From the NCBI RefSeq assembly GCF_032854445.1, contig NC_088300.1, forward strand, positions 68,112,984-68,176,983: a DNA stretch of 64,000 nt, given 5' to 3'. The notes beneath the pieces are model-generated. The model saw only the letters and a program-made list of their open reading frames with translations. It was not told the DNA's origin and did not search any database. This DNA comes from Liolophura sinensis. Lineage: Eukaryota > Mollusca > Polyplacophora > Chitonida > Chitonidae. Numbering within the stretch: the stretch's first letter is position 1; every line of letters starts with the position of its first letter. A program made the position numbers and the translations under genes. Shown one piece after another: positions 1-39,500 of this stretch.

Positions 1-499
1 CCTGGTTTTGTCAGGATCTATCTAAGTGACAGTTAAGTATCAAGTACACACATCATGTTGTAGGCTGTCTGTGGGTCATGTTTTGTCAGGATCTATCTAA
101 GTGACAGTTAAGTTTCAAGTATTCACATCATGTTGTGGGATGTCTATGGTCCTGGTTTTGTCAGGATCTATCTAAGTGAGTTAAGTATCAAGTACACACA
201 TCATGTTGTAGGCTGTCTGTGGGTCATGTTTTGTCAGGATCTATCTAAGTGACAGTTAAGTTTCAAGTACTCACATCATGTTGTAGGCTGTCTATGGTCC
301 TGGTTTTGTCAGGATCTATCTAAGTGACAGTTAAGTATCAAGTACTCACATCATGTTGTAGGCTGTCCATGCACCTGGATTTGTCAAGATCTATCTAAGT
401 GACAGTTAAGTATTAAGTACTCAAATCATGTAGTAGGCTGTCTATGGGCCTGGTTTTGTCAGGATCTATCTAAGTGACAGTTAAGTATCAAGTACTCAC
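1..499 (-). repeat. Tandem array of tetraspanin exon 4 end plus splice donor, 75 bp units
   Basis: The anchor 'gtcagg' (one copy reads gtcaag) recurs at 10, 85, 160, 233, 308, 383 and 458, and at 533 inside the true exon, so the unit is 75 bp (one is 73). Read on the minus strand, each unit carries the exon 4 sense sequence (DPDKT...SLQHD region), the donor and about 30 intron bases. Some copies have gtgagtac donors; others have gtgtgtac. The leftmost copies alternate between two variants (preceded by 'cctggtttt' or 'gtcatgtttt'), a dimeric higher-order pattern. The array continues past the left edge. Confidence 0.9.
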
Positions 500-598
500 A
501 TCATGTTGCAGGCTGTCTATGGACCTGGTTTTGTCAGGATCTATCTTGTACATCTGTAACATTGTGTCATTGAGATTTCTACTCAGCTCTCCCCTTAT
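500..598 (-). CDS. Tetraspanin coding exon 4 (start of large extracellular loop)
   Basis: 99 nt, acceptor 'cgttttacag', donor 'gtgagtac' (499-492). It encodes IRGELSRNLNDTMLQMYKID and on to DSLQHD. The 33-codon length and the 'EL..NL.DTM' pattern match the family. Its 3' end is the founder of the array at 1-527. Confidence 0.88.
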
Positions 599-3500
599 CT
601 GTAAAACGAAAAGCAAATTATTACCAAAACACTGCGTCTTCACTCAATGCAACACTTCATAGCTATTATCAAACCTACCAAGTACTGAACTCAGGCACAG
701 TTCAGCCTGTTCGCCACTTCAACCAAAAGGAAGAAATCACTGATATAAAAATGACAGTTTTCATTGGCTGAAAATCTAAATACAGTGACTTAATTATTTG
801 ATGATAAGCAACTTACTGCTCCCTCGTACATGTAGGCCAGAACTCCAGATATTGCTTCCAACAGGAATATCAGTAACAAGAAGAGGGCATACTGAAACAC
901 AGAATGGGCAGTTTCAAACATATATCCATGTGCAATCATTACAAGATCATTAATTTTATAAACCTCAAACCCACTGGGGCTACACAGTTAATTCACCCTC
1001 GCCATGTATCTAAATTTAATAATGATCTTGATCAGGACAATTTTATAAGTAATTGTGATACATGTACGTCTTTTCTTTCATCATGTTCGTTATTAAACAT
1101 TATCGAACAGATCATTCTTCAAATAGGACTTTACATGTAAGCATTCTTCAGATCAACTTTTGATATTCACAGAGAAAATCTGAAATGACGATAAAGAAAA
1201 CTGAGAATTTGTAGTATGTTCCCAGTAGTGTAAAACCCGACACTAGTTAGTGGTGTACTCATAACAATGAGGCAGACCCCGCTATCCTTTCAGACCCCCG
1301 GACATCCAGCAGTGTGAAACCTGACACTAGTTAGTGCTGCACTCACAATGATGAGACGGATCCTGCTATCCATCCAGACCCCCAGACAAGCAGCAGTGTA
1401 ACACTAGCTAGAGGTGTACTCACAATGATGAGTCACACTCTGCTGTCCTTCCAGACCCCCGGACATCCAGCAGTGTAAAACCTGACACTAGTTAGTGGTG
1501 TTGTCACAAACATGAGACAGGCTCTGCTGTCCTTCAAGATGTAAAGAGAACCAGCAATATAAAAAACCTGGCACAAGATAATGGTGTACTCACAATGGTG
1601 AGAGAGACCCTGCTGTCCTTCCAGACTACTGCACAGCCAGCAGTGTAAAACCTGACACTAGTTAGTGGTGTATTCGTAACAATGAGGCAGACCCTGCTAT
1701 CCTTTCAGACCCCCAGACATGCAGCAGTGTGAAACCTGACACTAGTTAGTGCTGCACTCACAATGATGAGACGGATCCTGCTATCTATCCAGACCCCCAG
1801 ACAACCAGCAATGTAAAACCTGACACTAGATAGAGGTGTACTCACAATGATGAGACAGAACCTGTTGTCCCTCAAGACCCCAGGACATCCAGTAGGGTAA
1901 AATCTGACACTAGTTAGTTGTGTAATCATATCAATGAGGCAGACCCTGCTATCCTTTCAGACCCCCAGACATGCAGCAGTGTGAAACCTGACACTAGTTA
2001 GTGCTGCACTCACAATGATGAGATGGATCCTGCTATCTATCCAGACCCCCAGACAACCAGCAATGTAAAACCTGACACTAGATAGAGGTGTACTCACAAT
2101 GATGAGACAGAACCTGTTGTCCCTCCAGACCCCAGGACATCCAGTAGGGTAAAATCTGACACTAGTTAGTTGTGTAATCATATCAATGAGGCAGACCCTG
2201 CTATCCTTTCAGACCCCCGGACATGCAGCAGTGTGAAACCTGACACTAGTTAGTGCTGCACTCACAATGATGAGACAGACCCTGCTATCATTCTAAACCC
2301 CCGGACATCCAGCAGTGTAAAACCTGACACTAGGTAGAGGTGTACTCACAATGATGAGTCACACTCTGCTGTCCTTCCAGACCCCCGGACATCCAGCAGT
2401 GTAAAACCTGACACTAGTTAGTGGTGAAGTCACAAAGATGAGACAGGCTCTGCTGTCCTTCAAGATGTGAAGAGAACCAGCAATATAAAAAACCTGGCAC
2501 TAGATAATGGTGTACTCACAATGATGAGAGAGATCCTGCTGTCCTTCCAGACTACTGCACAGCCAGCAGTGTAAAACCTGACACTAGTTAGTGGTGTATT
2601 CGTAACAATGAGGCAGACCCTGCTATCCTTTCAGACCCCCGGACATGCAGCAGTGTGAAACCTGACACTAGTTAGTGCTGCACTCACAATGATGAGACAG
2701 ACCCTGCTATCATTCTAAACCCCCGGACATCCAGCAGTGTAAAACCTGACACTAGCTAGAGGTGTACTCACAATGATGAGTCAGACTGCTGTCCTTCCAG
2801 CCCCTGGACATCCAGCAGTGTAAAACCTGACACTAGTTAGTGGTGTAGTCACAAAGATGAGACAGGCTCTGCTGTCCTTCAAGATGTGAAGAGAACCAGC
2901 AATATAAAAAACCTGGCACTAGATAATGGTGTACTCACAATGGTGAGAGAGATCCTGCTGTCCTTCCAGACTACTGCACAGCCAGCAGTGTAAAACCTGA
3001 CACTAGTTAGTGGTGTACTCGTAACAATGAGGCAGACCCTGCTATCCTTTCAGACCCCCGGACATGCAGCAGTGTGAAACCTGACACTAGTTAGTGCTGC
3101 ACTCACAATGATGAGACAGACCCTGCTATCATTCTAAACCCCCGGACATCCAGCAGTGTAAAACCTGACACTAGCTAGAGGTGTACTCACAATGATGAGT
3201 CAGACTGCTGTCCTTCCAGCCCCTGGACATCCAGCAGTGTAAAACCTGACACTAGTTAGTGGTGTAGTCACAAAGATGAGACAGGCTCTGCTGTCCTTCA
3301 AGATGTAAAGAGAACCAGCAATATAAAAACCGTGGCACTAGATAATGGTGTACTCACAATGGTGAGAGAGACCCTGCTGTCCTTCCATACTACTGCACAG
3401 CCAGCAGTGTAAAACCTGACACTAGTTAGTGGTGTACTCACAATGACAAGGCAGACTCTGCTGTCCTTCCAGACCCCCAGACAACCGAGGAAGCTGACAA

Positions 3501-5205
3501 GAATGATGAATCCCCCTGTGGCAAGGAACAAGTAGGTGGTCGTCGCATACATGTCATTGGACAACAGGCTGACATAGGAATGTTTGGCAACCATCGTCCA
3601 TACACCTACAGCCAGGAATGTTGCTCCAGAAAACTGCAATGACACATCACTGTTTGGTAAAGATATCGATATAACTCCACAAAAAATCAGTAATTTTAGC
3701 TTTATTTAAAGTTTTATGTACTTTAAGTTCATTGACCACAAAGCCATTTTGGACCCTTTTCACAATGCTTAGTTTTTGGTACTTCATGAAAGTTGAAATA
3801 ATGACAATACTGATGAGGAAAACAAAAATTTCTAAACCCAAATAAAAAGTTTTAAGATTGCATTACAAATTCAGAAATGGTTTTGTGAGACTGGTCCCCT
3901 GACCACACAGAATATGTAACTTGGCAAAGGTTGGTGATTTGCCCTTTCATGAAAACCCCATCTTCTCTTTCCAATGTATACCATCACAAAGTAAAGTGAA
4001 AAATTGTTAAGAATGATGTTAAACACCCATCAACTAAATATCTGTTTATTTATTTGATTGGTATTTTGTGCCTTACATGAGAGTATTTTACTTATATGAT
4101 GCAGCCAGCATTATGGTGGTAGGAAACTGGGCAGAGCCCTGGGAAAACCACAACCATCTGCAGGTTGCTGGCAGATTTTCTCACTTACCGCCGGAGTGGA
4201 AGCCAGTATGAGCTGGACTTGAAATCACAGCGACCACATTGGTGAGAGACTCCTGGGTCATTGTGCTGTGCTGGCCTGCTAACCCCATGAGCCATGGAGG
4301 CTCCCTCAACTCAATAAACAATATATCCATTAACAGGTTGGTGATTTGTATTTGTAGGTAAAACTAGACTTCCTACAAAGTCTGTGCCATAAATCATTAC
4401 GTCCAAACGGCGAGGACAGAAGTTTAATGATTTACTTCTACTTGACACAGATTTTTACTTGTGGCAACCTTATGATGTTCATACAAAGTTTATGGTAGAA
4501 ACTAGCCTGGTTTCCTACTCAAAATATGATGTGAAAGTCACCTGTATACCATCTATAACCTACATGTACATGTGTATGGCATGATGTCAGGTTTCTCTGA
4601 ACCGTGTTAGGCTATACCAGTTTAAATTGTTGTTTTCTGGGCAGTACAAATCTTTGTCCAATGTCAGAGCACTAAGCAGGGTATAAAAATAAAAATTGTC
4701 AAATTTGTGGGAGCTGTGGATTGTCCCAGCAATTTTCACCTGTACAAGACAGGAAAGTCAAAAAACAGGAAAAAAAATCATACAAACTGCCAAGACTGGA
4801 CAAAAGAAAAAGGTGGATTATCAATTTTATTTTCATTCCCTTTTTGGATTTTTTTTCAGTGTACATGCTTACTCGTAAAACAAAAAATAAACTGATGTTG
4901 CCTCTGAATTGTTTCTTAGCCTGCATGTTGCATTGTAGCATGATTTCCTACACAGATTATCCTGTTGAAATGGAACACACACGTGCATGTTTAACCACAC
5001 AGAAACAATATCCTACCCAGAATATGATGTTAAAGATGGTCAGGATATTGCGGAGAAAGAACAGCCCACAGACTCCATCTTTATCCTTTTTCTTACTCCG
5101 CTGTGTGCTCATGTTGGCTGCTGATGTCACAAACACCCTAATCTGGACTTATCTCCCCTTGTCAACCTCGTTTGTCCCACGGGCTGCTGTATTACGCTCA
5201 TGTAC
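500..5205 (-). CDS. Tetraspanin (CD151/TSPAN11-like), N-terminal four coding exons; 3' part outside window
   Basis: Four-pass membrane scaffold that organises receptors and integrins at the cell surface (family knowledge). Coding exons on the minus strand: 5112-5017 (96 nt, ATG at 5112), 3633-3442 (192 nt), 891-817 (75 nt) and 598-500 (99 nt), all in phase 0 with AG/GT borders. The 192-75-99 pattern is typical of tetraspanin genes. The 154 visible residues give a basic start (MSTQRSKKKDKDGVCG), TM1 (ILTIFNIIFW then FSGATFLAVGVW), a short first loop, TM2 ending GCLGVWKDSR, TM3 (YALFLLLIFLLEAISGVLAY) and the start of the large extracellular loop (ELSRNLNDTM). The diagnostic CCG motif would be in the next exon, left of position 1. 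A 5' UTR stretch (5113-5205) follows an acceptor (ctccag) and precedes the ATG, so an upstream non-coding exon is expected. Introns 2 and 4 contain tandem arrays made from the ends of the preceding exons. The family is certain; the CD151/TSPAN11 assignment is from resemblance only. Confidence 0.9.
599..816 (-). other. Tetraspanin intron 3
   Basis: Short 218 bp intron between coding exons 3 and 4, with gtaagt donor and tttacag acceptor. No repeat or other gene was seen in it. Confidence 0.8.
817..891 (-). CDS. Tetraspanin coding exon 3 (TM3)
   Basis: 75 nt, acceptor 'ctgtgtttcag', donor 'gtaagt'. It encodes 25 residues beginning YALFLLLIFLLE, including the conserved TM3 glutamate (LLE) and the AYMYE end. 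Confidence 0.9.
1221..3441 (-). repeat. Tandem array of tetraspanin exon 2 end plus splice donor, 84 bp units, about 26 copies
   Basis: On the minus strand each unit has about 45 nt matching the exon 2 end (GCLGVWKDSRVCLVI), then a donor-like 'gtgagtac' and about 39 nt of intron ('accactaactagtgtcagg' and on). The array fills most of intron 2, starting directly at the exon. A block with 'gaagagaaccagcaatataa' recurs near 1540, 2469, 2887 and 3308; the last three are spaced about 420 bp, that is five units, so there is a five-unit higher-order repeat. Several units stay open in the tetraspanin frame. Confidence 0.9.
3442..3633 (-). CDS. Tetraspanin coding exon 2 (TM1 end to TM2)
   Basis: Acceptor 'tcattgcag' before 3633 and donor 'gtgagtac' after 3442. 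It encodes 64 residues, FSGATFLAVG to KDSRVCLVI. The last 45 nt of this exon and the next 39 nt of intron are the founder unit of the array at 1221-3441. Confidence 0.9.
4045..4305 (-). mobile_element. tRNA-headed SINE (family A), near full length, in tetraspanin intron 1
   Basis: Reads 'tttatttatttgattggt' at its left (tail) end and a tRNA-like head ending in 'gccatggaggctccc' at the right. Between them are the shared body words (agcattatggtgg, gcaggttgctggcaga, ttgaaatcacagcgacc). The best full-length comparison copy is at 58291-58563. Confidence 0.85.
4620..4990 (+). repeat. Dispersed repeat, copy 1 (pairs with 10594-10890)
   Basis: Shares diverged but collinear words with 10594-10890: 'gggcag', 'caatgtc', 'ggtataaaaataa', 'gtggattgtc/gtggactgtc', 'aagactgg', 'gaaatggaaca'. 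Type unknown. It ends just downstream of tetraspanin coding exon 1. Confidence 0.6.
5017..5205 (-). CDS. Tetraspanin exon with 5' UTR tail and first coding segment
   Basis: Acceptor 'ttatctctccag' precedes 5205. The UTR runs 5205-5113 and the ATG is at 5112-5110. The coding part is 32 codons ending IFNIIFW, then donor 'gtagga' (5016-5011). The NIIFW ending at a phase 0 junction is the usual end of tetraspanin coding exon 1. Confidence 0.85.
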
Positions 5206-5832
5206 CTGGAGAGATAACAAGACAATACATTGTATAACAACACACAACTAAACATTGAAAATTGGTATTTTCATGCAATTTCTGAACATCTCACACAGGT
5301 GCCCATTAAAACAGGTAGTTCAAATTTGGTAAGAGAATCATCAGGGTAACACCAATCCCTATACAGGTGGCATAGACTACAGGGATGCTTCAAAGAATGT
5401 ATATACATGTCCCTACAGTCAGCGTAGAAGACAAGGCCCAAATAAAATTGTGATCGAAATATTTATCAATTGCACTGTAACAGGAGTATCTTTGGATATA
5501 ATCAACTTTTATGTGTTTCATGTTTTTCATGGAGATAATAAAAAAACAGAACGAGGAAGTCTAATATTCGCTTTGTATCTTGAGCAGAGTGCTCTATGAT
5601 ATCAAATGATACAAATTCAGAATGTTCTTATCAGACTGACAAGAATCTGGTTGGGCGTGCGTGCCAATGGGGAATGTATACCAGTCTTCTTTAAGACACC
5701 CAGGCTTTTAGACTTTCAGAACTCTCAAGTATAACTACTAAAAGCTGGATATACAAAATCAGATATTGTGGTTTAATGCGGGACTGTGACAATCTAATAT
5801 TGGTTACAAGTTTGTCTGAACGGAAAAGAGTA

Positions 5833-5878
5833 ATATGAGTGAGTGAGTGCTTGGGGTTTAACATCGTACTTGACAAGA
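5833..5878. mobile_element. SINE family B fragment
   Basis: 'gagtgagtgcttggggttta' followed by a 'acatcgtacttgacaag' end, matching the terminus of the element at 12305-12640. Confidence 0.6.
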
Positions 5879-6059
5879 GTAATGTCTCACAGACTGAGGT
5901 ACTGGGACAATGCTGGATACATCTGCCTTTCATTAGAATGGTACATGCACATTCAAGTCTGGAGCAGAGAACCTTGTCAACTGCATTAAAGTTTCACACA
6001 GCAGATTGAGAGCCATTTCACGTGTAGTTCCAGAAAACATTCAGACTCCCATAACAATC

Positions 6060-6240
6060 AAGTTGTATTGAAACTAACAAGTAAATTGAACAAAATACGA
6101 TGGTTTACCAATTAAAAGTTTGGTTTTCACACAAATTTCATTCATTCACAGATTTAAGAGCTCTCTGAAAGCAGCATTTTGAGTTGTGTTCTACAAAATT
6201 TCTTTATGCACATTCAAAATGCCAGCTTTTAAGTTTCTGA
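6060..6240 (+). repeat. Dispersed repeat, copy 1 (pairs with 23403-23570)
   Basis: Collinear words shared with PRMT1 intron 4: 'atgatggtt/acgatggtt', 'accaattaaaagttt/accagtgaaaagttt', 'attcacagatttaa.agctct'. Type unknown. Confidence 0.6.
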
Positions 6241-7189
6241 AGTTTTTCAGCTTTAATTTGGTAGATACATGTAAGGGCCTTCACCGGCATATTTGAATGT
6301 ACAAAAGATTAACAAGGTTTTGCCGCCCAAAATAGAGAGTTTGCCTCCACTCTTTAACAAAAACAGGTTATGGCTGCATTTTCCCAGCACCTAACAACTA
6401 AATGTCATTATACAGTGTAACAAATCTGAGAACAGAATATATGGCAAGACATCCAACGGTTCTTAAACATGAAAAAAAAAAGTTTAACGAATGCCAAAAA
6501 ATCCACTTTGCTACCTATATCCATGAGGCATTATTGCTAAGCTATTCATGACGACAGACATGTGAGTTAGTCGTTTTTGCATTGCACCATACTGATATCA
6601 ATCAATGGTCATGTTACTGTGTACATGCAGCCTACTCACACGAAGAAAAAAACCACGGATAGATGGCAGTAGAATGATAGACAGTCTAGTGTTGGGAGCA
6701 TTTTCCCATGCTGGCGACATATACACTGACACTTGTAGTTATAGCCACTTGGACAATGTTATTAATACATTAAAACGTTGCTTTTACTGATCACCTGAGT
6801 TTCCATAGAGACCTTATTTACCGGGCCATTCCGGGTTCTGATATTGACACTGTCTCTCCATTTGTTGCTAAGGACCACCAACCAATTTAGCCAAATATTG
6901 TCAGGATTTCATCCAGCACAGAAAAAAAAGGGACAACATGTGAAGTACATGTAACCACTTGGATCACTGGCTTCTTTGTATCATTGGAGGACAGAATTTC
7001 TACATATGAATGATAATGAAATTACACATACAGAGTACACATCCTTGTATGTAGTGCACAATCATGATCAACAGATGGGTATGCAAAATTAAGTGCTGCC
7101 ATCACACAGCCACTTGGTACTGTTGTACACACATGTGCGTCTATCGGGACTGGTAGATCCAGGATCAATCCTTGATTGAGTCACACCTA

Positions 7190-7232
7190 AGACTTTGTTG
7201 AGTACGACGTTAAACCCCAAGCACTCACTCAT
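7190..7232. mobile_element. SINE family B terminus
   Basis: 'ttgagtacgacgttaaaccc' followed by 'caagcactcactca' is the reverse of the SINE-B terminus seen at 12307 and the same as at 29674-29710. Confidence 0.6.
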
Positions 7233-10200
7233 GTGCATCTACACAGAGATAGATTTTTCTATACATTTGTGGAAATTTATATTTTAAAAGTTAGCAGTAG
7301 GATATATGTACAGATACATACATGTATACTGAAATTCGGTTTGAAATCAGACAATTCTGATACATATACGTGAACATTATGAGTGCATGTAAATATCCAA
7401 AACTGTTGGAACAGATGTAATCATAACAGCTACATGTATTTGAACTACATTTATACATGTACGCATAATTTCTCAAACCATCTCTCCAATATTTTGTGAC
7501 ATTCTGAGACAACTACGGGGCGCAGAGAAATAATTTGCACAGTTTTATGAAGCTTGCATCTCAAATGACACAAAAAAATCATCTTTGGTGTCATGTTAAT
7601 AATAACTGTACGCATAAATTCCACTGAAAAAAATGCTTTAGAGGTTGAAAAGCTTGAATATTTACGGTTTAATTATTAATATATCTACTTAAAACACTGA
7701 GTTTCAAAAGAGAGGCAATTTTCACAGCTTCACCCTTCATGCAATTCACATCGCTTCACCCTTCATGCAATTCTTCAACATTTCGTACCAATCAACAAAT
7801 GAACAATTTGGTAGGGTTGATTTTTCGTTTATATAATTACATATCATGTACATGGGCTAACTTCAGAGCTTCATGTTGGCCTACACAGAATTTATTAATT
7901 CAGGTTACATGCTTGGAGTACTGAAAAAATTGTGTGCAGTATAAACTACATGTAGCTGGCAGCTTACAACTTACCTATTACAACATTATCAGAGTGGCTA
8001 CACCTAAGTGTACATGTGATACTTCCCAAATAAGTCCAGTGAAATGATCTACATTACATGAGAAAAAAACATCACTTACTGCCTGTTGACCAACCTCCTT
8101 CAAAGGGATCAATGCATGTCTACAGTATGTACCACAACCCCCATGTACTTTGGCTGTTTTAAGCCTGTGTTTATAATAGGCACACGATTTTAACAAATCC
8201 CCATCACTCCATATAAGGTCACATACCAAGTTTATAGTAGCCCCCACCCCTTATTGCGTGCCTTAGCACAGTATACAGCAAGGCCAGACAAATTACTGTC
8301 CTTGTCTTAAGTTGGTATGAAATCTGACTCAGCCCTCAGTAACTAACACAGGTTTACAGCCTGTGTCAAAATGTCAGCCTAATTATAGATGTTTTACAGC
8401 ATGGAGGCTTGATCCAAATCCCCAATATATCAGCTGACACTTGAATAGTGAAAGAAAGCAGCTTATAGCATGTCTTATATCATGAAAGTTGCGTGAATAT
8501 TGATAGGAAATAAGAGGAAAACTTTGACTGACAATTGTCACCAATTTGTTTGGCAGTTTAATGTTACCTACCCTAAATCCTCTAAAAATTTCAACCACAA
8601 ACAATTTATTAAGTGCGTGTTTTGGCATATTAATGGAATGTTAATTTACCATATCTGGGTAGGTAATTCCAGATTATAAAATTCACAACGTGTCTCAATC
8701 CAAGCAAGACATTTTAATCTTTGAAAATGCTTCTGAAGTTGTGTTTAACTGGCTGAATTTGTTGAGGAGTCTGGGTACATATACTGTGTACAATCAGAAT
8801 GTACATGTATATGTAAGCCCAATTCTTCAGTCACTACTCATACCATTTCTCACCATTATATCTACACAGGCACACACTCTGGACAGTTTACTAATCAGAA
8901 CAAACTTCAATATACAATATACATGTACTGGACGAGACCCCACCAGAATTAATAAAAACTTGTCTAGGAAAACTGGATCACTTTCATTCACTTTCATGAA
9001 TTCTGATAAAAAAAATCTGACATCAGGCTCCACATTAAAAAATCCACACTCCTTTTAAAGGAAACACCTGCATATATGTAAATTTCAAACAAAAGCCCAA
9101 CCTTACTGAAGTACACCGTGTTCCAGTTATAAAATACAGGTATTGTCCTGCATGCACATATTCATGGTATTAATGAAAAGGGTCTGCATGTAGATCCCCA
9201 GAGGTCTCTATAGACATGTGTTCACACTCTAAACCTACAAGTACCTGTATGTCATGGCAGCACTTTCAAAGATATCTAAACACACCTTCATGCTGTTTAA
9301 AAGTGAGCAACACATTCTATTAGTTTTTTACAAGTGGCCACAAAACAGACTGGTAAAAAATGGACAATAAAGCACAAGTATACGTCTCTGAATTCTTAAA
9401 AATCTACACACTCAAAGCTGTTGTGCATGACGACATAGCAATATTGTATGTACATGTATCATAGTGAGTAAACACAGCTGCCAATCTCAGAAATGTTATC
9501 TATCACTGCATGAACTTCAAGCTCAATGTAGAAACTAAGGAGCAGGAAACACTGACATACAAACCATTTAGTTGTTCAGCCAGACTGCCGACAGCAATGT
9601 GGAGTCTCATCTGACCGAAGCCTCGAACATGCATGCAGAAAACCAGCAACTTGTGTGTGGGAATAGTCAAGCTTCAAAGGCACAACAAACAAATTCTTCT
9701 GCGGCTGACCATCCTGTCTTCATGTGGTCAGCATCAGGAAACACTGTTTAGATAATCCAGTCTGTTCTAGCCACACCCACCCTCACCCTAAAGGTCAAAA
9801 CTGGTATGTGGGAGAGGCTCATGTGCAAAAACAAGGAGCTAGAGTATAACCACATGATAAAAGCAATCATTGCCACCTGTGGGAATTGAACACTTGCCAC
9901 AGAACTGATCAACAAAACAACAACAGTAACAAACACATACAATGTCACTCTAAGTACAGTAATTCTCCATATCCTTTGTAAATGATTTTTGAAGGGATCT
10001 ATTAACAAATGGCTGGAGAATACTTCATTACTTGCTTAAGGTTGCTTTTGACATCCACTAAACATAAAGATGTACATTCAACATCAGGTCCATGCTTTTA
10101 AAAAGATGTTTGGGTAAATTTGCCTGGTAACAGGTCAAAAGGTTGTGGCATTGACAATACCCTATACTCTGTTTATGGAAAAGTGCCCTTGACGTTGAGG

Positions 10201-10593
10201 AATACTTGCTCTACATTATTGCACAATACATAAAGCTTATGTAACTTAATATTCCCAGGATACAGTACCAATTTCTGACACAATGCGTTAACAACACATA
10301 GGTGTACTGGCTAGCATCAAACATGCGTACAAAGTAGACATACATATGATATCATTAAGCTGGTAATGAGATTTGTCCATGCTAGAATGTTAATCTGGTA
10401 TTTAAACAATTGAACAAGAAATCATACCAATACCAACAAACCACTCATGCACTGAGTCACTGAGTTGACCTCACTGTACCAACAGTCAACCAGAACAGCT
10501 TTATGGTACCTGCTATGTGCTGACCAATCTGCAGTATATATATACCCCTTATTATATACCTACCAGCACTGCACTACTCTTTAGACCACACCA

Positions 10594-12640: not shown

Positions 12641-12756
12641 TTAAGATGCAGGAGCGCGTTACGATGCACGTGTACATGTAAATATAACAGCACTATGACA
12701 AAGCCTAATTTGGACAAACTAATCTCATACTAGTGAGCCTGAAATTAACTCTACCT

Positions 12757-15510: not shown

Positions 15511-15516
15511 TATTAT

Positions 15517-18475: not shown

Positions 18476-28030
<9,555 letters not shown>

Positions 28031-29000
28031 AGAAGATAGCCGCGAGACCAGAATGGACAGAGTGACTGTCAGCTAGTGACAGGACAACAGACTGTGATGT
28101 GGCATCAGTTATTGACTTGGAGCGGGGGTGTAGGCAGACACTGGGGGTGGGGATTCCACATGCTGTATGGTGCTGTTCTGTACAGCTGGTGTGAACTGCG
28201 TCTCTGCGACTTGGTTGTCTGTGCAGGCGGTCCTAATTGCTGGAGGGGCTCGCCAGTCGGTCAACACAGTTACAAGTCATGCTGCCTATTTTAGCCCAAA
28301 CGAAATATAAACACACTTACATTTATTGCATTTACAGCCTGAGAAACATGAACATTTGTCTCTTCCTCCCCTCCTCCCCTCCTCCCCTCCTCCCCTCATT
28401 TTGAAGCATAGCAACATTGTTTCCTTGTACTTTGATGTGGCCTATGAACTATTTCTGGATTGCAATTATTTTGTATCAACTTTTATTGTTCACATTCAAA
28501 GTAAGTTGCCAGGCTAAAGTCTGTTGCTGTTTCCTGGTTATAGCCTTTCTACATTTGATATATGTTTAATAAGGTGTTGAGCTTGCAGTAGAAGTGAGCT
28601 GTTTCAAATTTTTAATTGTAATGGGGGAAAAATGTTTTAAACAACAAAAGTACAAAAATTGAGTTGGTGTCACGTGAAGATGTGTATTGTTGATAACATG
28701 AACAAATGTCAAATAATGATCTTATCGGCGGCTTAGTGACTGAGAAATGGTGTTCACCATAATTTAAACTGATCCTGACTTTCTGTAGAAGTGTAGGAAG
28801 ACTGCATGCTATGACAATAACAGAACAGTCGACGGTGCACTATAGCTGCACTGTTTTCGGGGAAAGTCATTTTAATATCGCTCAAGATCAGGTACTGTAC
28901 CATGAAAATTGTCAGGAGTAAGATTTGTTCTGCTTTTTTTTTTGTATGGACTCGAAATCTGCCCTTACTTTTGCCAAAATTAAAATAAAAGGTACAGTTC
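28031..29000 (+). other. PRMT1: PRMT1 3' UTR (predicted extent)
   Basis: Follows the stop codon. Contains a (CTCCC)n-like run at about 28365-28397 and a candidate poly(A) signal AATAAA at 28984-28989. The end is inferred from that signal only. Confidence 0.4.
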
Positions 29001-29649
29001 TGGTAATTTCATATTTGATGATTTTGTGAAGTTTCATGGTCATGTTCTGGAAAATTCCTTTCAGCAAATCAAGTGAGTTTCGTGGTCACATGTTACAAAT
29101 GGTAATCGCTTGGACGGGACGGGGACCTGACTGGCTTGAACGGTTGAACAGTCATCTGGCGAAGATACTTAAGAGTGGTATAGCATTTTTTCGATGCAGA
29201 ACTCTTTGCTTTGACTACGTCGGACCTTGTCAGAAGCTTGTCATTTAGCGGGGAAAGCGTGATGGTCTACTTCACTTTTAAATCTGATCGTAGTCATATT
29301 AATGAATAATACTTTTGTACGACGTTTATCACCAAGAAATAAAATAAATAAATTTAATCTCGAACAGACAAGGTGTTGGTTCAGTCCCAGCCGGTTACCG
29401 GTAATTCTCTCGATCCGGTACTAGGCATTACAGGCTGTTCATGGTGCCTTTCTTGGCGAAAACTGGTTTGATAGTACGGCCGTCTACTCTAGGTGGGCGT
29501 ACATGAACTTCATTTAGAGTTCGAATGTACTCTGCTTCATAATTGTATCTAGGTCCGCTTAACCCGGGGCCAGGGGCGGTATATTCATGGGGTTGAATTA
29601 GATCGCCGCGTTAGATATATGAACAATTGCAACTCAGATACATATTTTA

Positions 29650-29710
29650 TTATCGTCGTCATATGACTGAAAAATTGTTGAGTACGACGTTAAACCCCAA
29701 GCACTCACTC
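29650..29710. mobile_element. SINE family B terminus
   Basis: 'cgtcgtcatatgactgaaaa' followed by 'attgttgagtacgacgttaa' and 'accccaagcactcactca', the inverse of 12307-12375. Confidence 0.65.
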
Positions 29711-30779
29711 ATATTTTATTACGGATAACTTATGATCTAGCATGGTACACGATTTGAATAGTGATTTTACTCATTCGGCTTGAACCTACCTTGTGCCTTC
29801 CCCTCATCACTGAAAAGTGTTGTCTGCCTCTGTTTGCACAATTTCATCATAATTTTTGTGCTTTATATACTTTCATTGTTCTTTGTTGGTTTGTGTTCAA
29901 CGTCTTTTGGGGGAATTGACCTTGCGGTTATTGCCCTGAATCGTCCATATTGGTTGACGGCTGGATACGAATGTCTGTTCCGATGCATAGCTTCAATCCA
30001 AGTGGCATTCGCATATGAAGCAAACATCTGCACATCGTGTGTATGAAAGTTCGCCAAATGGGAGTTGTTTACTGTATAGACATTACGGTTTCCAACACCC
30101 ATGAAACCTGCGTTGGTGTATGAGTGCAATATTCTTGTATTTAAATCAACAATCAGTCTGAAAGAAAATGTGACACGAAACATATTAAATGATCAAACTG
30201 GAGAGATTCAAGGTCATACTGGCATTCTGTTACAAATGTTCAAATCATGTGACAAATACATATCTGTAACCTAGGGTGATAATTCTTTCAAATTGTGAAA
30301 AGGTGGAGCTTAAGTAAAAAATACTAAAAAGAAAAAAACATACGCCTTTATAACTGATTACTCGTAACAATTCAAAGGAATGTCCTCGTATATACTCCAC
30401 ATATTAGTTATAATGCCAAATAAAAAATCCAACGTAATAGCGTTAAGAACAAAATCTGACATTCTGAAAACACGAATAACAGTGTTGTGAATCCTGACAA
30501 TTTGCTCTAAGATACCGGCAGCTTTGCTTCGACACTTCTGAAAGCTATAAGCTGGGAAAAATTAAACATTTCAAATCTATGCCTGAGCGTAGATCTACAA
30601 GTGTCTTGTTTCTAATCTGTTTCCACTCGCATTTTTCGTGGGGTATTTCTGTCAACCCCGGATGGTGGATGTATGACGTGTCATTGTATACCTAGTTGGA
30701 AGGTAAAGCTGACATCGACGCATATACCGAAACGGGGAACTGTTACTCAACACGTGAGTATATAATATAAATGACTGAT

Positions 30780-30970
30780 GGCCCATGCAGTTTCACGTGG
30801 ACTTGGTTCATGCCGGAACGGTGTGCCTTCTTTCGCCAACCTGTGCTGGATTTCATGTGGTTCGAGGAATCTACGTTGTTGAAACATGCATGGTGCTAGA
30901 AGTCTATGCCATCGCCACGATATGGCTGAAATATTGCCGATGTGGCGTTAAACCATAATCATTCAATCAT
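30780..30970 (+). mobile_element. SINE-like element (family C)
   Basis: Ends 'gccacgatatggctgaaata' + 'ttgccgatgtggcgttaaac' + ATTCAATC tail. The tail design matches the fragments at about 21958-22010 and 39408-39465. Confidence 0.5.
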
Positions 30971-31195
30971 CCCCGGGATTGGCTGCAGTCTTCCTGCATG
31001 CCCGATCTTAAAATGCATGTAGGTAAGAAGTATTGGCGAAAATAAACTATATAGGCCCCTATACGTAATTTTTTCACAACTTGATAACGCGAGAATCATT
31101 TCAGGGAATTGATAGATCAAAGTATTGAAGGTTCGATGCTCCTCTTCAGTTCGCCTTTGAAAGGTTCAATAACTTCATGTGCAGTCTGTTTCACA

Positions 31196-32165
31196 TTGCT
31201 TTCTTGGCGGAACAGTATAAGCAACCAAAGCTTACAGTGAGTTGAATCCTAAAGTGCTCATCATAACCAGTTTTTGAATAGCTTTCTGGACCACACAGTG
31301 TAGACAAGCAGATCTTACAGTGAGTTGAATCCTAAAGTGCTCATCATAACCAGTTTTTGAATAGCTTTCTGTGCCACACAGTGTAAACAAGCAGATCTTA
31401 CAGTGAGTTGAATCCTAAAGTGCTCGTCATAACCAGTTTTGGAATACCTTTCTGGGCGACACAGTATAAGCAACTAAAGCTTACAGTGAGTTGAATCCTA
31501 AAGTGCTCATCATAACCAGTTTTTGAATAGCTTTCTGGGCCACACAGTGTAGACAAGCAGATCTTACAGTGAGTTGAATCGCAAAGTGCTCGTCATAACC
31601 AGTTTTGGAATACCTTTCTGGGCCACACAGTGTAAACAAGCAGATCTTACAGTGAGTTGAATCGCAAAGTGCTCGTCATAACCAGTTTTTGAATAGCTTT
31701 CTGGGCCACACAGTGTAAACAAGCAGATCTTACAGTGAGTTGAATCGCAAAGTGCTCGTCATAACCAGTTTTTGAATAGCTTTCTGGGCCACACAGTGTA
31801 AACAAGCAGATCTTACAGTGAGTTGAATCGCAAAGTGGTCGTCATAACCAGTTTTTGAATAGCTTTCTGGGCCACACAGTGTAAACAAGCAGATCTTACA
31901 GTGAGTTGAATCGCAAAGTGCTCGTCATAACCAGTTTTGGAATAGCTTTCTGGGCCACACAGTGTAAACAAGCAGATCTTACAGTGAGTTGAATCGCAAA
32001 GTGGTCGTCATAACCAGTTTTTGAATAGCTTTCTGGGCCACACAGTGTAAACAAGCAGATCTTACAGTGAGTTGAATCCTAAAGTGCTCATCATAACCAG
32101 TTTTGGAATAGCTTTCTGGGCGACACAGTATAAGCAACTAAAGCTTACAGTGAGTTGAATCCCAA
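31196..32165 (-). repeat. Minisatellite, about 11-12 units of 83 bp
   Basis: Unit: 'cttacagtgagttgaatcct', 'aaagtgctcatcataaccag', 'tttttgaatagctttctggg', 'ccacacagtgtaaacaagca' + gat. On the minus strand each unit has 'actcact|gtaag', a good donor-like site. A degenerate unit continues to about 32240. It lies directly 3' of the cysteine-rich ORF at 32502-32690. Confidence 0.9.
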
Positions 32166-32501
32166 AGTACTCGTGGAAGTCCCTGTCACTTTATGCGGCT
32201 TTGGATAGTAGCTGCTTGGGCCACGCAATATATACATATAAACCAAGCTTATACTTTTGTATCTATGTACATATATACTGGTGTAGATTTTGAATAGCCA
32301 TGGAATAAGTAGGCCTAAGTGTATACAATCAAAGCTGCTATAGCAATTTGGATCTAACCTTACCAAGTTCAATGGTAAGTCCTGACACAAGCCGCTGTTG
32401 TTGGTTGATTTCGAAAAGCAATCGTGCGATTTGAATTCCAAAGTGGGTTTCTTGCACGCCAAAAACACGACCATGATTCTTCAAAATGAAATTGCACACA
32501 T

Positions 32502-32690
32502 TTATGTCATTCCGCACGCTTTACAACACGGACGACAGCAGAACTTCAAACACTGACACAACACACAGTCCACATTTCCAGCATGCCTCCTTCGGTGTTC
32601 GACCGAATCAAAGGAATCCACGCTTGTGTTGGAGTCACTGCTACCCTGCCTTGATCGGGACGGCTGTTTGACGACAGGTGACTGTGGCAT
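32502..32690 (-). CDS. Small cysteine-rich protein A, unrecognised
   Basis: From ATG at 32690 (MPQSPVVKQPSRSRQGSSDS), 62 residues: a polar, Ser-rich N-terminal half with a DSFDSVEH segment, then a cysteine cluster CVLCQCLKFCCRPCCKAC near the C-terminus. No signal peptide. The pattern C-x2-C-x-C-x3-CC, preceded by 'SF.S.EH', is shared with the ORF at 34781-35023 on the same strand, so the two look like diverged duplicates. Clustered cysteines after a basic/polar tail could be palmitoylated or bind metal, but nothing shows which. It may be one exon of a larger gene. An in-frame GTG lies four codons upstream but would not be used in a eukaryote. Confidence 0.5.
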   Translation of the reverse strand: MPQSPVVKQPSRSRQGSSDSNTSVDSFDSVEHRRRHAGNVDCVLCQCLKFCCRPCCKACGMT

Positions 32691-33107
32691 TTTGCTGGAC
32701 ACACGTGCAGCAGAGGGTTAGACTAGTATATGTACAGTTATCACCCACAAAATATGTGGACTAAATAGCCTTTAAATACTTTCGATTATAGGCCTATATA
32801 CTCACGGGGTTCTTGAAGAACTTGCGTATATATATAGTACTGTTTTATGCCTAACCTGCATGTATAATATACACTCTTCCACTCGTGCACAACTATAATG
32901 TTGTATTTCGGAAAAACGGGATCATGTTTATGCGCGTCCTGAAAGCATTGTCAATTTTACAAGTGTATATCTTATGCCATTCATTAGGGTCACTGGAGTG
33001 ATATACAAATGTGCCGGCTGTGTTTGTTTGGCTGTTGTCAATGGCCCCGGTGCAGCCGGCACGCATGGGACTATATATATATGTTAACTGTCAGTCAAGA
33101 TTTAACC

Positions 33108-33667
33108 TTAAAGGAGAAGAAAATTTAAAAAAGTACACTATAGGCTGAAAAGATCACATTTTTTCTAATAATTTTGTCATACACATAAAGCCTGAAAACG
33201 GCAAAGCTGGCATAAATCACCGTGTCCATCGCGTCCTCCATCTTTAACACCCTCTAATTTATGCTGGGAGTATGTGTCCTCACAGCCAACGAGAGCCGTT
33301 AAAACTGCCGGCTCGATCGTGAAAACTCGGAACCTACGTCCAACATTCCAATTTCCCGATCGTCAAGCGGAAACCACTGAAGCAACGCGAAGTACCGCTG
33401 GTTGGTATCTCACGTACATTTTCTATCGTAAATGTATGAACTACATGTCGGCGGTTTCCGACAAAACTTCTCCTCCTAACACAGAAGACTTCGGGACTAG
33501 TTCTTGGGCAAAATGGAGACGCCCACAGCGAAGTTTGGCGCTGACTTTATTTATAATTTATCAGCTTGAGGTACATATTTGTATTTTTTTTATGGCATGC
33601 ACATGCAAGGAAATGCATACTCTTTTCAATGGTATTTGTTTGATATTTAAATGTTCTTCTCCTTTAA
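33108..33667 (-). mobile_element. MITE-like element, copy 2, TTAA ends, inverted relative to copy 1
   Basis: Terminal inverted repeats 'ttaaaggagaagaaaattta' and 'aaatgttcttctcctttaa'. The internal sequence aligns in reverse with 12757-13340. The 165-codon ORF crossing it is not supported as a gene. Confidence 0.8.
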
Positions 33668-33689
33668 TACATGCGCAGGGCATAGGCCT

Positions 33690-33792
33690 ACTGGGTTTCC
33701 TCTGTGCTCTGACCGGTTTCTTTAATGCTGGAGGCCGTCGAATAAGTGAAATATTCTTGAGTACGGCGTAAACACCAATCAAATCAATAAAT
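33690..33792 (+). mobile_element. SINE family A fragment abutting the MITE
   Basis: 'gggtttcctctgtgctctga', 'taagtgaaatattcttgagt' and 'aacaccaatcaaatcaataa'. Starts about 25 bp after the MITE end. Confidence 0.7.
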
Positions 33793-34780
33793 GAGTTTAG
33801 GCAAACAGTACCGGTATGTTGTTTTGCATCTTTCTTATTATACGAAGAGAATTCGTAGGCTGTTATATATAATAAAATAAATCGGTTTTGAACCTATATA
33901 CAGGCCTTGATGCATGTTGCATTCGGTTGTTACAGGTTTAGCACCATGGTAAAGCCTTGTTTATTTATTTCCTCAAGATTTAACGTCGCTTTCAACAATA
34001 GTTTCGTTATATTACATTCCTCTGTGTGGCAGACCGGTTTTCATGACAGTATAGGGTGCTGCTTCACTAGGACAGCACGATGATGACACCATGCAGACAA
34101 GACCTTTATTTATGCAGCCAAATTATTTTCACCTCAACTTTAGAGCAACTATACTCCCCCCCCCCCAGAATATAATATTATAATGGTTATTTTTCATCAA
34201 AAATATAATATTGTACTATTACTGTTATAGAAAGTCATTTGAGATAGGGTAAGACGTTAGAAACCCAGTAAACTTACGATAAGACGGTAATTAATTCATT
34301 TGTTACAAGATTTATTGCTGAAACACGTCTGGATGGCAGAGAAATTTGTCACGATCGACCGTCATATACCAATACATAGACATGTACACAGTATTTTTAT
34401 TGCACCTTGTCAATGAGTCGTTGGCTCGATCTATTGTATGGCCATAGAGCAGCGCTCCAAGCAGACTTAATTTTACACAAATCAGAATTAGTCTAAATGA
34501 TCTTTTCAGGACATATATCCACATTGTTTCGACATTTTTTGTCTTTCCTTTCTTCGTTGTCCGACAGAAATTTTCGGTTACTCTTGAGTACTCCTGATAG
34601 TGCCCGTTGTAACGACTGCCAGAGATTGAACCAATGGAATTTTCAGCCACACTTCCATACTCTTTCCAGTGCGATGTTCATACACTCCTCACAGCGGGGG
34701 TACACCTCCCCATGCAATTAGTCTTTCCCGCTTTACAAATCACGCCCTTGTATTTTTATATTGTAAGTGGGTACGATAAA
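33793..34780. other. Gene-free stretch between MITE/SINE and cysteine-rich ORF B
   Basis: Contains a poly(C) run near 34157-34166. The minus-strand open stretch at 34312-34650 begins with GTG, not ATG, and resembles nothing I know. Confidence 0.4.
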
Positions 34781-35023
34781 TTATGTTCTGTCCGGTGACC
34801 TACACCAGCGCAGTCCACAGCACAGTCTCACACACCGGCAAAACTGACACTCGAACTGTCGATAGTGTTCATCTGAATTGAAAGAGTTTGTTTCGCCAGA
34901 GTTATCAGCCCTTGCCCTGGTATCCACACCGTCTACAACTTCCGAACCCGACACTGGTTGATCCTGGGCATTTTGATCTGGACCCACATTTTGTGACTTC
35001 TGTGTAGTAGACATCATTACCAT
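34781..35023 (-). CDS. Small cysteine-rich protein B, unrecognised, paralogue of the ORF at 32502-32690
   Basis: 80 residues from ATG at 35023 in a good context (cgcacaaATGG); the fourth codon is a second possible start (MSTTQKSQNVGPD). Acidic and polar N-terminal part, then NSFNSDEHYRQFECQFCRCV and RLCCGLRWC. The alignment with protein A covers 'SF.S.EH', C-x2-C-x-C-x3-CC and a short polar tail. The spacing of 2.1 kb on the same strand suggests a tandem duplication. No known domain was recognised. Cys-rich tails of this size occur in membrane-tethered small proteins, but that is analogy. Confidence 0.5.
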   Translation of the reverse strand: MVMMSTTQKSQNVGPDQNAQDQPVSGSEVVDGVDTRARADNSGETNSFNSDEHYRQFECQFCRCVRLCCGLRWCRSPDRT

Positions 35024-36382
35024 TTGTGCGTACCCACAAACTGCATCTAATCAGTGTTCTGGTGTCCGAAAGTGTTGCTCGCATAGGCTAACACAGCACG
35101 TAAAGAGGCACAAGTTTCAGTGGATCTTTGCAGGCCTACTCGGCCCGCTCGGTGATCCCTGGGGAGATAACTCTTGACTTACAAAGTATAACAAATGTTT
35201 CAAGTTAAATGTTAAATAGGGTGCAGGATTCGGAATATATGGTCTGTTCACAGTCGTTTTTTTCTTGACAACGTCGGTCCCGCATGGGTCTGACTGACCG
35301 AAACATCGAAAACGTCCTGCAAATATTTTTTGGCTGGATGTATTCAGTTTTGAAGTGATGTCATAACTGCCCTGACCCAATCATCAGCACACTCTTTGGT
35401 CACGTGATTACAGTGGAGGTGAAAACAAAGCGAATTTAACCAAGGTGAGATAGGCCTTGATTTAGAGTTTAGCTTGGATAATGAAAAAATAGATTTTTTG
35501 TTAAGAATTTTCTCATGGAATAGTAATCAGCATGTGTCTATAACCTTCAAATATGATAGTTTCATTGTCCAGTAGTTTTTTTCAACTTTAGAAATCGAAA
35601 TTTACATTATGGCTGGGACTAATATATGCTATACTGGTCACAGATTATGGCTGTTATGTTTAGGGGTGGATATGGGGAGCCTGCGACATCCACATTTACA
35701 GTGCAGGTCATCCTACGCCACACCACCAGCTGGGCCCCACGTAGAAACTTGGAGGACATCGCCTGGCATTGCCTCAAACTGGGCAAGGGTCTAGGTGTTT
35801 TTTTTTTTTTTTTGTGGAGCTGTATTGCATTTATGGAGCATTTTCGCATACTATCACAATGCATGGCTAGTCATCAGACGGAAATTCCCAACTTAAGACC
35901 GAGAGGGCTTCCTAAACACCTCTATTGTACCAGTATCTGATCTGACCCAATGGCTGAACTAATATATCAACCTTGCACATGCCCAAGCAACTTTCAGTGT
36001 GATCTATGCACCTTTTTAATTGGATTTTGGAGACAAAACTGCACTGGTTGGGTTGACAGATTCAGGGTTTTACAAAAAAAAAGTATAATTTTATCAGCTT
36101 TCACAGAATAATGCCTTTAGAATACGCATGAATAAACCCCAGGACAACAGGTGCGAAATGGTTGAAATATTAGACTTGAGTTGCAGCCATCCTGGATCTG
36201 TTAACTTTTTCATCGTGTCTCCAGGAATGAGTCTTTTATTTTGTCCATGTGCACTGGAGTGTGAAATTCTGCTGTTTATATAGATCCAAGTGCAAATCAT
36301 CTAGAGTGTTATTGTTCACACAACTGATAATTTCTTATGATTTTTTTGATAAACATCACAACACCAATTTTCCCGTAATCAG
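35024..36382. other. Intergenic stretch between cysteine-rich ORF B and RPL27A
   Basis: Short ORFs on both strands (for example 35626-35940 plus, 35117-35380 minus) without recognisable domains; a poly(T) run at about 35799-35813. Nothing supportable as a gene. Confidence 0.4.
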
Positions 36383-36388
36383 TTTATT
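36383..36388 (-). terminator. RPL27A: Poly(A) signal of RPL27A
   Basis: AATAAA on the minus strand, 28 nt after the stop codon, giving the very short 3' UTR usual for ribosomal protein mRNAs. Confidence 0.75.
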
Positions 36389-36416
36389 TTCATCTCTGGG
36401 TTTATGATACAAAGAT

Positions 36417-36545
36417 TTAGGCCACCAAAACACAGGCACCCCCAACTTCTCTAATTTTCTTCTCTGCTGAACGACTGAAGAACTTGGCCTTGACGATTAC
36501 AGGTTGTTTTGGGAGATGACCTTTGCCCAAAACTTTGTAGTAGCC
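36417..36545 (-). CDS. RPL27A: RPL27A terminal coding exon
   Basis: Acceptor 'cttctttgtag'. Encodes [20 protein letters not shown] through GGACVLVA and TAA (36419-36417). Confidence 0.96.
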
Positions 36546-39500
36546 CTACAAAGAAGAAAACAAAACACATTCTAATTGAGTATATAATTTATTTATTTGA
36601 TTGGTGTTTTATGCCGAATGAAGAATATTTCACTTATATGACGGCAGCCAGCATTATGGTGGGAGGAAACCGGGCTGGTGAAACCAACGACCATCAACAG
36701 GTTGCCGACTGACCTGGAGTGCTAACCATATTCGCTCCAATAAAAGCACACAAATGAACATACATGAAGTCCTTCAATTAATGACACCCTTAAATATTCA
36801 CCTCATTTTAACAGATAATCATAGCTTTTGAGGTATTTACTTACTCCTTTTTTTATATACCATATCCAAGATAATTTCACTTCAAAGTTTATGCATGAAA
36901 AATGTTTGGGAACGGCAAAAACAACTTGAGGAAAAACACTTTTCGAGTCAAGAGTCTGAAAAATACTGACAAATCATACACAATGACAAGTAACTGTTGG
37001 ACATGTAATATGGAACCACAATAGTAAAGACTTGAGCAAAGGAGTGAATTTGTGACTTCAGTCAGTATTCCAGCAATATCAATTGAGAGTTACCAAGAGT
37101 CAAGCAAAGGACCTTACGTCTACTCCAGGCAGAGACAGATTCTATTTACTGCGAAAGACAAGTGGGGTTTATGTATGTTCAATTGCAGACCAAGACCAGC
37201 TACATTTGAAGAGCGTCAGTGTTTGAAATGCTATTAGCAGTGACCTAAAATAATATAAAGGGGCCTTCCCTTATTAAAATAGGCTCAACTTTCGATGGAC
37301 TGCATTGCTACTTCTTATAATTTTTAGGACAGATATTAGTGCTGAAAGCAAAGAATTACATTTCTCTACCAGTTTTCTTGGAAAAATGAAGATACGAATA
37401 TGTTGTGCATTAGATGGACTAACCATGAGAAAAAAAAAAAGAAACAAAATATTCCCGCTACATTTACAAGTATACTGGCTAAAAAGAGCAGACCATGCGT
37501 CCTAGAAATGAGAAGAATTGGGGTATTTTTTGTTGACTGTTGGCTGAAAGTCATTTACATATATTAGATTGTTGCTTCATCCCCCAGCAAGAGGGTGAAG
37601 GGACATGTATAAAGCAAATCCCTCACTTGAATCTTGCCAGGCCTTAGCCAGGTTGTTCAGGTTTTGTTTGCATCTACACTTCTACTGAAAAAACAAAACC
37701 AAAAAACAATGTTTACTTACTGCGCGTGTGGTGTCGATGACAGGTGCTGTTCCATCTGCTTTCTTTTTGTACTGTAATCTGGTTTGTTCAGAGACCAGGG
37801 ACCAGAGCGAGTCAATGTTCACTGTAGGACAGTAGTATTTGTTTCTGGTCAAGTGGAATTGCCTCATGCCAACCTTTCCAAAGTAACCTGGATGGCTGTG
37901 GAAGGAAAGAAAACCCCGAAGCAGTTAGAACCAGAATGCCATAAGTGATATAAATGGCACATTGCCACTATGAGGTTTTGAGGCATTGATGATGGATTCT
38001 GTGCTGACATTATACAGACTTACTCTGTGGTGATGCTTATCAGACTTACCACCTGTCATAGTTGATTCTGTGGTAATGCTAAACAGACTTACTACTTGTG
38101 ATAGTTGATTCTGTGGTGATGCTAAACAGACTTACTATTTGTCATAGTTGATTCTGTGGTGATGCTAACCAGACTATTTGTCATAGTTGATTCTGTGGTG
38201 ATGCTAAACAGACTTACTATTTGTCATAGTTGATTCTGTGGTGATGCTAAACAGACTATTTGTCACAGTTGATTCTGTGGTGATGCTAACCAGACTATTT
38301 GTCATAGCTGATTCTGTGGTGATGCTAACCAGACTTACTATTGGTCATAGTTGATTCTGTGGTGATGCTAAACAGACTTACTACTTGTCACAGTTGATTC
38401 TGTGGTGATGCTAAACAGACTATTTGTCATAGTTGATTCTGTGGTGATGCTAACCAGACTTACTATTTGTCATAGCTGATTCTGTGGTGATGCTAACCAG
38501 ACTTACTACTTGTCAAAGTTGATTCTGTGGTGATGCTAAACAGACTATTTGTCACAGTTGATTCTGTGGTGATGCTAAACAGACTTACTATTTGTCATAG
38601 TTGATTCTGTGGTGATGCTGGCCACCAGCTTTACCACGACCACCTGGATGCTTCCTGTGTTTGCCTGAAAAAATGATTGTACACATTGGTAAAAAATATC
38701 AGGAAACTATATACGGGCATTATTTTTTCTTTAACCAGTGGAACAACAGGAGAAAAAAAACAATATAATAACACATCCACACAGTGTGGCTAAATAATTC
38801 TACATGAACAGCCGCTTTCTCCAATCAGAACAACCAAATGGTGAAGTTGTCTGTAACTACAGGTTATTAGTTTCAAATGCCTGATCAAAGAATTTAGTTT
38901 CCCAGTATATAATATTATAAGCCAGGTGCAAAACATAGGATTTCTCCAATACATATTTTAACCCATTTTCAAGAATAATTTACTTCATGGTAGTTGTTAA
39001 CTTTACTGATGGAGGTAAAGAGTAGCGGAAATCAAGATGAAATCAGCAGGTACACGCAGCCAAGCCAGCAAGACTATGGCCAGATGTTATTAACTTTTCT
39101 CAGGATGATTTTTCACTGAAATGCAAAACTCAAGACTATTTCACAGAGATGTGCTTGTTGTATATACAAGGTATTTGACTGGGAGGAAACTGACAGAGGC
39201 CAGGGGAAACTCACCACCATCCACAGGTTTCTCAAAGGCCTTCCTACATAGGACGGAAGTGGAAACCAGCATGGATTTCAACTCCCACCAACTGTATCAT
39301 TGTGCTGCGCTAACATGCTAACCGTTAGGCCACATAGGCCCCCTGTACACACCCCAAAGAACAACGTACGTTGTTACACTTCCAACACACAATGAATCTT
39401 TTTCCTGATATGGCTGCAATACTGCTGTTGTAGCATAATGAAGGCATAATCATTTATTCATTGGTTCAATGTCTTCCCATCACTCACCAATACGTCCGTG

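Follow-up and report, generated by a model that had tools for sequence, protein, structure and literature searches.

Minisatellites that span splice donors in the chiton Liolophura sinensis

Several minisatellites in a 64-kb stretch of the genome of the chiton Liolophura sinensis (hereafter the window) begin inside a coding exon and run on across its splice donor into the intron. This raises the question of how often arrays are founded on splice donors in this genome, and whether such a position calls for a mutational process of its own. The assembly was published as Liolophura japonica, with 632 scaffolds and a stated total of 609,495,693 (PMC11068029, in part), and the species name was corrected to L. 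sinensis (PMC12441733). The genome as sampled here comprises 609,464,459 bases in 632 contigs, and the window lies on contig C6.

Arrays of the window and their host genes

Tandem Repeats Finder (TRF), run on the window with overlapping rows joined by hand, yields ten sizeable arrays (Table 1). Three of them (A, B and C), all on the minus strand, are donor-spanning minisatellites that start in an exon and extend into the intron, so that TRF and exon homology together confirm a preliminary description in which three of ten arrays were founded on an exon end plus its donor. Like the arrays of the wider sample described below, they are built of units of about 10-150 bases repeated head to tail, and the unit contains the authentic donor of the adjoining exon, as deduced from homology and sequence.

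Table 1. Positions of arrays, exons and other features; numbering is that of the window or, for labels beginning with L, that of the sample
Feature	Position	Strand	Details
Array A	5-546	-	period 75; 7.3 copies within window; unit of 47 exon bases, GTGAGT donor and intron
Tetraspanin exon before array A	500-598	-	last exon base 500; donor 499-498
Tetraspanin middle exon	817-891	-	YALFLLLIFLLEAISGVLAYMYEGA; no array at its donor
Array B	1222-3483	-	period 84, higher-order period 419; 27 copies; unit of 42 exon bases, GTGAGT donor and intron
Tetraspanin exon before array B	3442-3633	-	last exon base 3442; donor 3441-3440; start inferred from CAG at 3636-3634
Dispersed short repeat	~20235-20400		~156 bases
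PRMT1/8-like gene	22036-28027		eight tblastn pieces
Comparison array	22386-22984	+	inside PRMT1/8-like intron, ~190 bases beyond donor; not donor-spanning
Array	31198-32174
Open frame	33196-33771	+
Next RPL27A exon, start	37850-37895	-	after CCACAG, the acceptor of the array C intron; assigned by reading; 37850 is where the reading stopped, not the exon end
Array C	38024-38619	-	period 43; 14 copies; unit of 31 exon bases, GTAAGT donor and short intron piece
RPL27A (uL15) exon before array C	38589-38664	-	last exon base 38589
Array	42106-43101
Open frame	43995-45788	+	597 codons
Array	46868-47325
Open frame	50129-50467	+
Array	57506-58045
Array	59656-61252		57-base unit; 28 copies; 94% matches
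Array	63563-63984
Myosin donor array L099	606-1161	-
Acceptor array L006	8753-9201
Acceptor array L037	19-440
Acceptor array L052	866-1161
Acceptor array L057	1-355
Acceptor array L132	1-379

Arrays A and B lie in one tetraspanin gene and array C in RPL27A, which agrees with the earlier statement that two genes of different function are involved. Joined in one phase, the exon before array B, the middle exon and the exon before array A give a Pfam Tetraspanin match over residues 2-121/122 (E=2.1e-23), and the same translation matches a Tetraspanin-7 chain (1.3e-15) through the last residues of the array A exon. The homology of the array A exon appears only when it is joined to the two preceding exons; its 33 residues alone gave nothing of note in Pfam and protein chain searches. 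The array C exon matches 60S ribosomal protein L27a/uL15 chains with E values down to 3.5e-11 and, as a short piece, has no Pfam match. The third gene of the window is PRMT1/8-like and contains a single array, which is intronic.

At the edge of array A the exon ends in CAACATGAT and the intron opens with GTGAGTACT (donor AT/GTGAGT, the slash marking the junction). The corresponding sequences are CTTGTCATT and GTGAGTACA for array B (TT/GTGAGT), and GACAAATA and GTAAGTCTG for array C (TA/GTAAGT). A DNA search shows that array A continues for about 700 bases leftward past the start of the window. Array C fills most of its 693-base intron, the acceptor of which (CCACAG/CCATCC) is unrelated to the repeat unit. 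Genome searches with pieces of the three arrays, in which very common words were skipped, found no dispersed or transposon-borne copies of the units beyond their own loci, so we infer that each array was founded in place.

Two details of the preliminary description need adjustment. The unit does include exon bases, but their number, given there as 31-45, is 31-47 in the window and 5-114 in the wider sample. The copies do accumulate on the intron side, but purifying selection on the exon would produce the same outcome, and the direction of growth is in itself no clue to mechanism.

Other repeats and open frames were noted in the window. The array at 59656-61252 has one uninterrupted frame on each strand (600 and 542 codons), and the dispersed short repeat recurs at 90-95% identity in at least 39 other places of the genome. 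The long proline-rich open frame has a hydrophobic C-terminal stretch and no Pfam match at 0.001. The two shorter open frames end in a near-identical peptide (ISEIFLSTA) and are probably copies of one dispersed element.

Donors and acceptors in an independent sample

We sampled exons without a prior look at repeats by comparing the Pfam families PF00118 (chaperonin), PF12774 (dynein), PF00063 (myosin) and PF00225 (kinesin) with the genome. The sample comprises 276 exons of 353 Pfam matches, with 271,930 bases around them. It takes in 47 of 50 chaperonin matches (three long single-frame matches on contigs C5 and C6 were left out), all 90 dynein and all 81 myosin matches, and the 58 of 132 kinesin matches that fall within 52 regions picked in E-value order. 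To call splice sites we combined the match frame with a general animal matrix not fitted to this species; exclusion of donors scoring below 3 and acceptors scoring below 0 left 266 donors and 264 acceptors as distinct sites. After merging, the TRF rows with a period of at least 15 and a score of at least 100 gave 69 arrays, whose units average 54 bases and whose summed length amounts to 11.7% of the non-exonic sequence. Candidates overlapping an exon edge were read by eye, most arrays merely near an edge were not, and one donor (L006) was set by hand at 545, where the matrix call had been 829. The counts below thus refer to one assembly and four gene families, with splice sites inferred by homology and matrix.

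Arrays that hold the exon end and repeat its donor are present at 15 of the 266 called donors (L001, L006 (two), L026, L032, L037, L045, L061, L065, L077, L099, L100, L137, L147 and L150), in about 13 genes or loci as judged by position. By family they were found at 3 of 47 chaperonin, 3 of 90 dynein, 6 of 81 myosin and 3 of 58 kinesin exons. Only 5-6 exon bases are included in two of them (L032 and L137). Mirror-image arrays cross 5 of the 264 acceptors, one of these arrays (L006) with almost no exon bases. L057 and L006 each show about eleven copies of tract plus AG in the fetched stretch, the last of which is the called acceptor.

Three candidates were set aside. L086 had been taken as donor-spanning from its TRF start (-4), but its repeats begin about 30 bases inside the intron, and its removal lowered the count from 16 to 15. 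L115 begins 56 bases beyond the called donor, and L090 lies near an acceptor, not across it.

Random placement of founders in the non-exonic sequence of their own region predicts 4.4 donor and 4.7 acceptor crossings, against 15 and 5 observed (P=5.8e-5 and 0.50), and a global version of the test predicts 4.45 at donors (P=6.6e-5). In simulated placements the mean was 4.1 donor crossings, none of 5000 runs reached 15, and the donor-minus-acceptor difference was 10 or more in 0.1% of runs. The donor excess persists at the stricter array scores of 150, 200 and 300. The preliminary description had expected more donor arrays than chance allows, and the sample agrees; its further expectation of donor specificity, with acceptors as the control, holds in so far as donors exceed acceptors (15:5, two-sided p=0.041; 13:3, p=0.021, without the cases with few exon bases), but the arrays are not confined to donors, acceptors being crossed at chance level.

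We also counted the exon-side edges of arrays in 60-base bins running outward from the last 60 bases of the exon. On the donor side the bins hold 11 (10 without L086), 8, 3, 3, 4 and 0 edges, with five more arrays starting deeper in the exon; on the acceptor side they hold 5, 7, 4, 3, 6 and 5, with none deeper. The far bins are under-counted in both series owing to short flanks.

Base composition accounts for part of the donor excess. The 49 intronic arrays are 1.7- to 1.9-fold over-represented above 38% GC and occur at 0.4- and 0.55-fold below it, and the mean GC of sequence windows is 43% over donors, 41% over acceptors and 37% in introns. Corrected for G+C, the expectation becomes 6.6 donors (15 observed, P=0.003) and 6.2 acceptors (5 observed), a control that rests on those 49 intronic arrays in coarse bins. 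As the correction raises the donor expectation from 4.4 to 6.6, composition can account for about one third of the excess on a log scale, leaving donors about 2.3-fold above expectation.

A whole-genome count of three spaced copies of AGGTAAGT gave 626 raw matches, against 468 for the same pattern read backwards, raw counts being inflated by many matches per array. Grouped by hand, the matches listed form 16 and 15 separate arrays, respectively, along contig C1 as far as 72.2 Mb, and the test is without power. The exact triple pattern is absent from the sampled regions, from all 15 donor arrays and from the window, with the octamer at only 9 of 265 called donors, and the count is therefore used in neither direction.

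The repeat unit and its copied donors

Unit and donor statistics were taken over 18 donor arrays, the 15 sampled and the three of the window. Exon sequence makes up between 0.08 and 0.94 of a unit (mean 0.60), a spread not distinguishable from uniform (KS p=0.10), which places the donor inside the founder rather than at a fixed breakpoint or offset. The unit length is a multiple of three in 5 of the 18, showing no frame preference. Donor arrays have a G+C content of 45.5%, compared with 42.0% for intronic arrays (p=0.048). The G skew of their sense strand is +0.198 in the 15 sampled donor arrays versus +0.012 in the 49 intronic arrays (p=0.059), and +0.072 and +0.082 in introns after donors and in exons. 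We take this skew as a hint only, which could stem from the composition of the exon and donor.

After the 18 true donors we counted at least 118 repeated ones, a lower bound in that the copy walk skipped copies (one was found in L137). On the general donor matrix 89 of these score 5 or more, and 58 equal or exceed the true donor. The array mean of the copies is never above the true donor (7.7 versus 9.5 on average, Wilcoxon p=0.0015), as expected if selection keeps only the proximal donor. Use of the first repeated donor would cause a frameshift or add a stop in 16 of the 18 arrays, and the exon-proximal donor is thus presumably the one used.

In the myosin array L099 the donor CAG/GTGAGT is followed by 16 copies, 15 of which have weaker donors (GTCAGT, GTCACT, GTCAAT, GTTAGT). 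Either the true donor has been improved or the decoys have been weakened.

Origin of the arrays and comparison with known systems

The founders of these arrays cross splice junctions in place, donors are crossed more often than expected, and the copies lie on the intron side. On balance we consider it probable that they are ordinary minisatellites, the founding tandem duplication of which happened to include a splice junction; G+C-richer DNA would favour their birth or survival, and splicing would act as a filter. A segment made up of the exon end, the donor and the first intron bases would have been duplicated head to tail. The exon-side copy would stay in use, and the surplus copies would become intron, grow by the usual slippage or unequal exchange, and decay like any minisatellite. 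Such a duplication leaves one complete copy of exon and donor, and should therefore have next to no effect on fitness, provided that the exon-proximal donor prevails. Splicing presumably stays with that donor, although many copies are equally strong in sequence. The composition data show in part that arrays are born or survive preferentially in G+C-richer DNA, such as exon edges provide. Repeated donors downstream of the true donor would be better tolerated than repeated acceptors upstream of the true acceptor. Extra upstream acceptors stand in the way of recognition proceeding from the branch point, and harm is to be expected from them more often; this can account for the absence of an excess at acceptors. 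The broad exon share is as random placement of founders would give. The abundance of arrays in the sample, the confinement of arrays A, B and C to their own loci, the mirror class at acceptors and the lack of a frame preference in unit length also speak for ordinary minisatellites. However, filtering can lower the acceptor count but cannot raise donors above expectation, and the G+C-corrected donor excess (15 against 6.6) is not accounted for. This residual may be statistical, or may stem from an unmodelled sequence preference or from a mutational mechanism coupled to transcription or splicing. The tendency of donor arrays to a G-rich sense strand (p=0.059) counts against an origin as ordinary minisatellites, and a transcription-linked process would predict it too.

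The preliminary description had proposed such a process, tied to the 5' splice site, with R-loops, U1-bound nascent RNA or replication slippage as examples. In the form weighed here, R-loops or U1-bound nascent RNA would expose single-stranded DNA just after the donor in the germline, and repair or fork restart would produce short tandem duplications that include the donor. We regard this as possible but rather unlikely, and the G skew, the hint on which it might draw, does not establish it. The donor excess that survives the G+C correction, together with acceptors at chance level, speaks for such a process, as does the skew, and array edges are raised in the first 60 intron bases (8, against 3 and 3 in the next bins), a count over called sites, most of which were not read by eye. 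However, the last 60 intron bases before acceptors are likewise raised (7, against 4 and 3), the arrays keep no fixed offset from the donor, the family frequencies alone show no clear link to breadth of expression, and the AGGTAAGT count shows no clear excess, although that test is powerless. We give a similarly low probability to the broader proposal that donors are hot spots of minisatellite birth, where duplications linked to germline transcription or splicing would arise 2-3.5 times as often as at other intron positions, leaving about one in 18 donors with an array of repeated splice sites.

Selection might instead keep the arrays, if strings of donors recruit extra U1 snRNP and thereby aid exon definition or guard the intron from premature polyadenylation. 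The many well-scoring copies are in line with this idea, which we nevertheless judge improbable: the copies are on average weaker than the true donor, nearly all of them in L099, such arrays occur at acceptors too, and the near-identity of copies elsewhere may simply reflect the youth of the arrays. A chance coincidence within one window, suggested by there being only three arrays, two of them in one gene, is refuted by replication at other genes in the sample and is very improbable indeed. Just as improbable is an origin in intron gain, with the arrays left over from the tandem duplication of an exonic AGGT segment. Both routes begin when a segment carrying a splice signal is duplicated in tandem, but the donor-spanning units hold intron as well as exon sequence, and in array C, the one array compared in this respect, the two intron ends do not derive from one exonic AGGT segment, its acceptor being unrelated to the unit.

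If the frequency of 15 in 266 holds genome-wide, thousands of chiton introns would begin with several near-identical donors in a row. These would form a natural experiment on how the spliceosome chooses one of several equal donors beside look-alike copies. They would also lengthen introns and perhaps make coding genes polymorphic in length. They are a trap for gene annotation, because a partial exon copy that carries a good donor resembles a real exon end. Should the G+C-corrected donor excess prove mutational, the birth of minisatellites would be tied to splicing or transcription.

Splice-junction-spanning minisatellites are a subclass that is unexpectedly frequent in this chiton, with ABCA7 as a human precedent. 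Among the titles and abstract openings listed by searches of an open-access library there was no report of recurrent donor-seeded minisatellites, and the words 'tandem' and 'intron' are absent from the main text of the chiton genome paper (PMC11068029, in part). The preliminary description knew of no named class; we likewise found none, but a human precedent is in print. Passages of PMC5954066 describe a VNTR in intron 18 of human ABCA7, with a 25-base unit, opening with the exon 18 donor, that is present in about 12 to 427 copies, and an isoform that keeps one unit through use of the first repeated donor. As described there, this minisatellite likewise adjoins an exon end directly, and its unit takes in the splice donor. 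Unlike the chiton units, the ABCA7 unit starts at the GT itself and repeats no exon bases, and it concerns one locus rather than a recurrent class.

In human segmental-duplication genes, internal tandem repeats at exon-intron boundaries alter splicing, with 27 intron modifications, according to passages of PMC2812944. Those repeats share with the chiton arrays their position at exon-intron boundaries and the program used to find them. They differ in being variable and in forming new introns in recent paralogues, and the passages give no donor and acceptor counts and no random-placement test. Tandem duplication of splice signals is also a model for intron gain (PMC4974935, in part), which has in common with the chiton arrays the duplication of a segment carrying a splice signal. 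In the part concerned, a new intron arises from exon sequence, whereas the chiton arrays extend an intron that already exists and multiply its donor.

Donor arrays resemble ordinary minisatellites (VNTRs) in their units of 31-140 bases, about 2-27 copies, 69-97% TRF matches and occasional higher-order periods, and the three tested are locus-specific. Unlike ordinary minisatellites, they derive from a founder that crosses a splice junction, and one edge is pinned in coding sequence.
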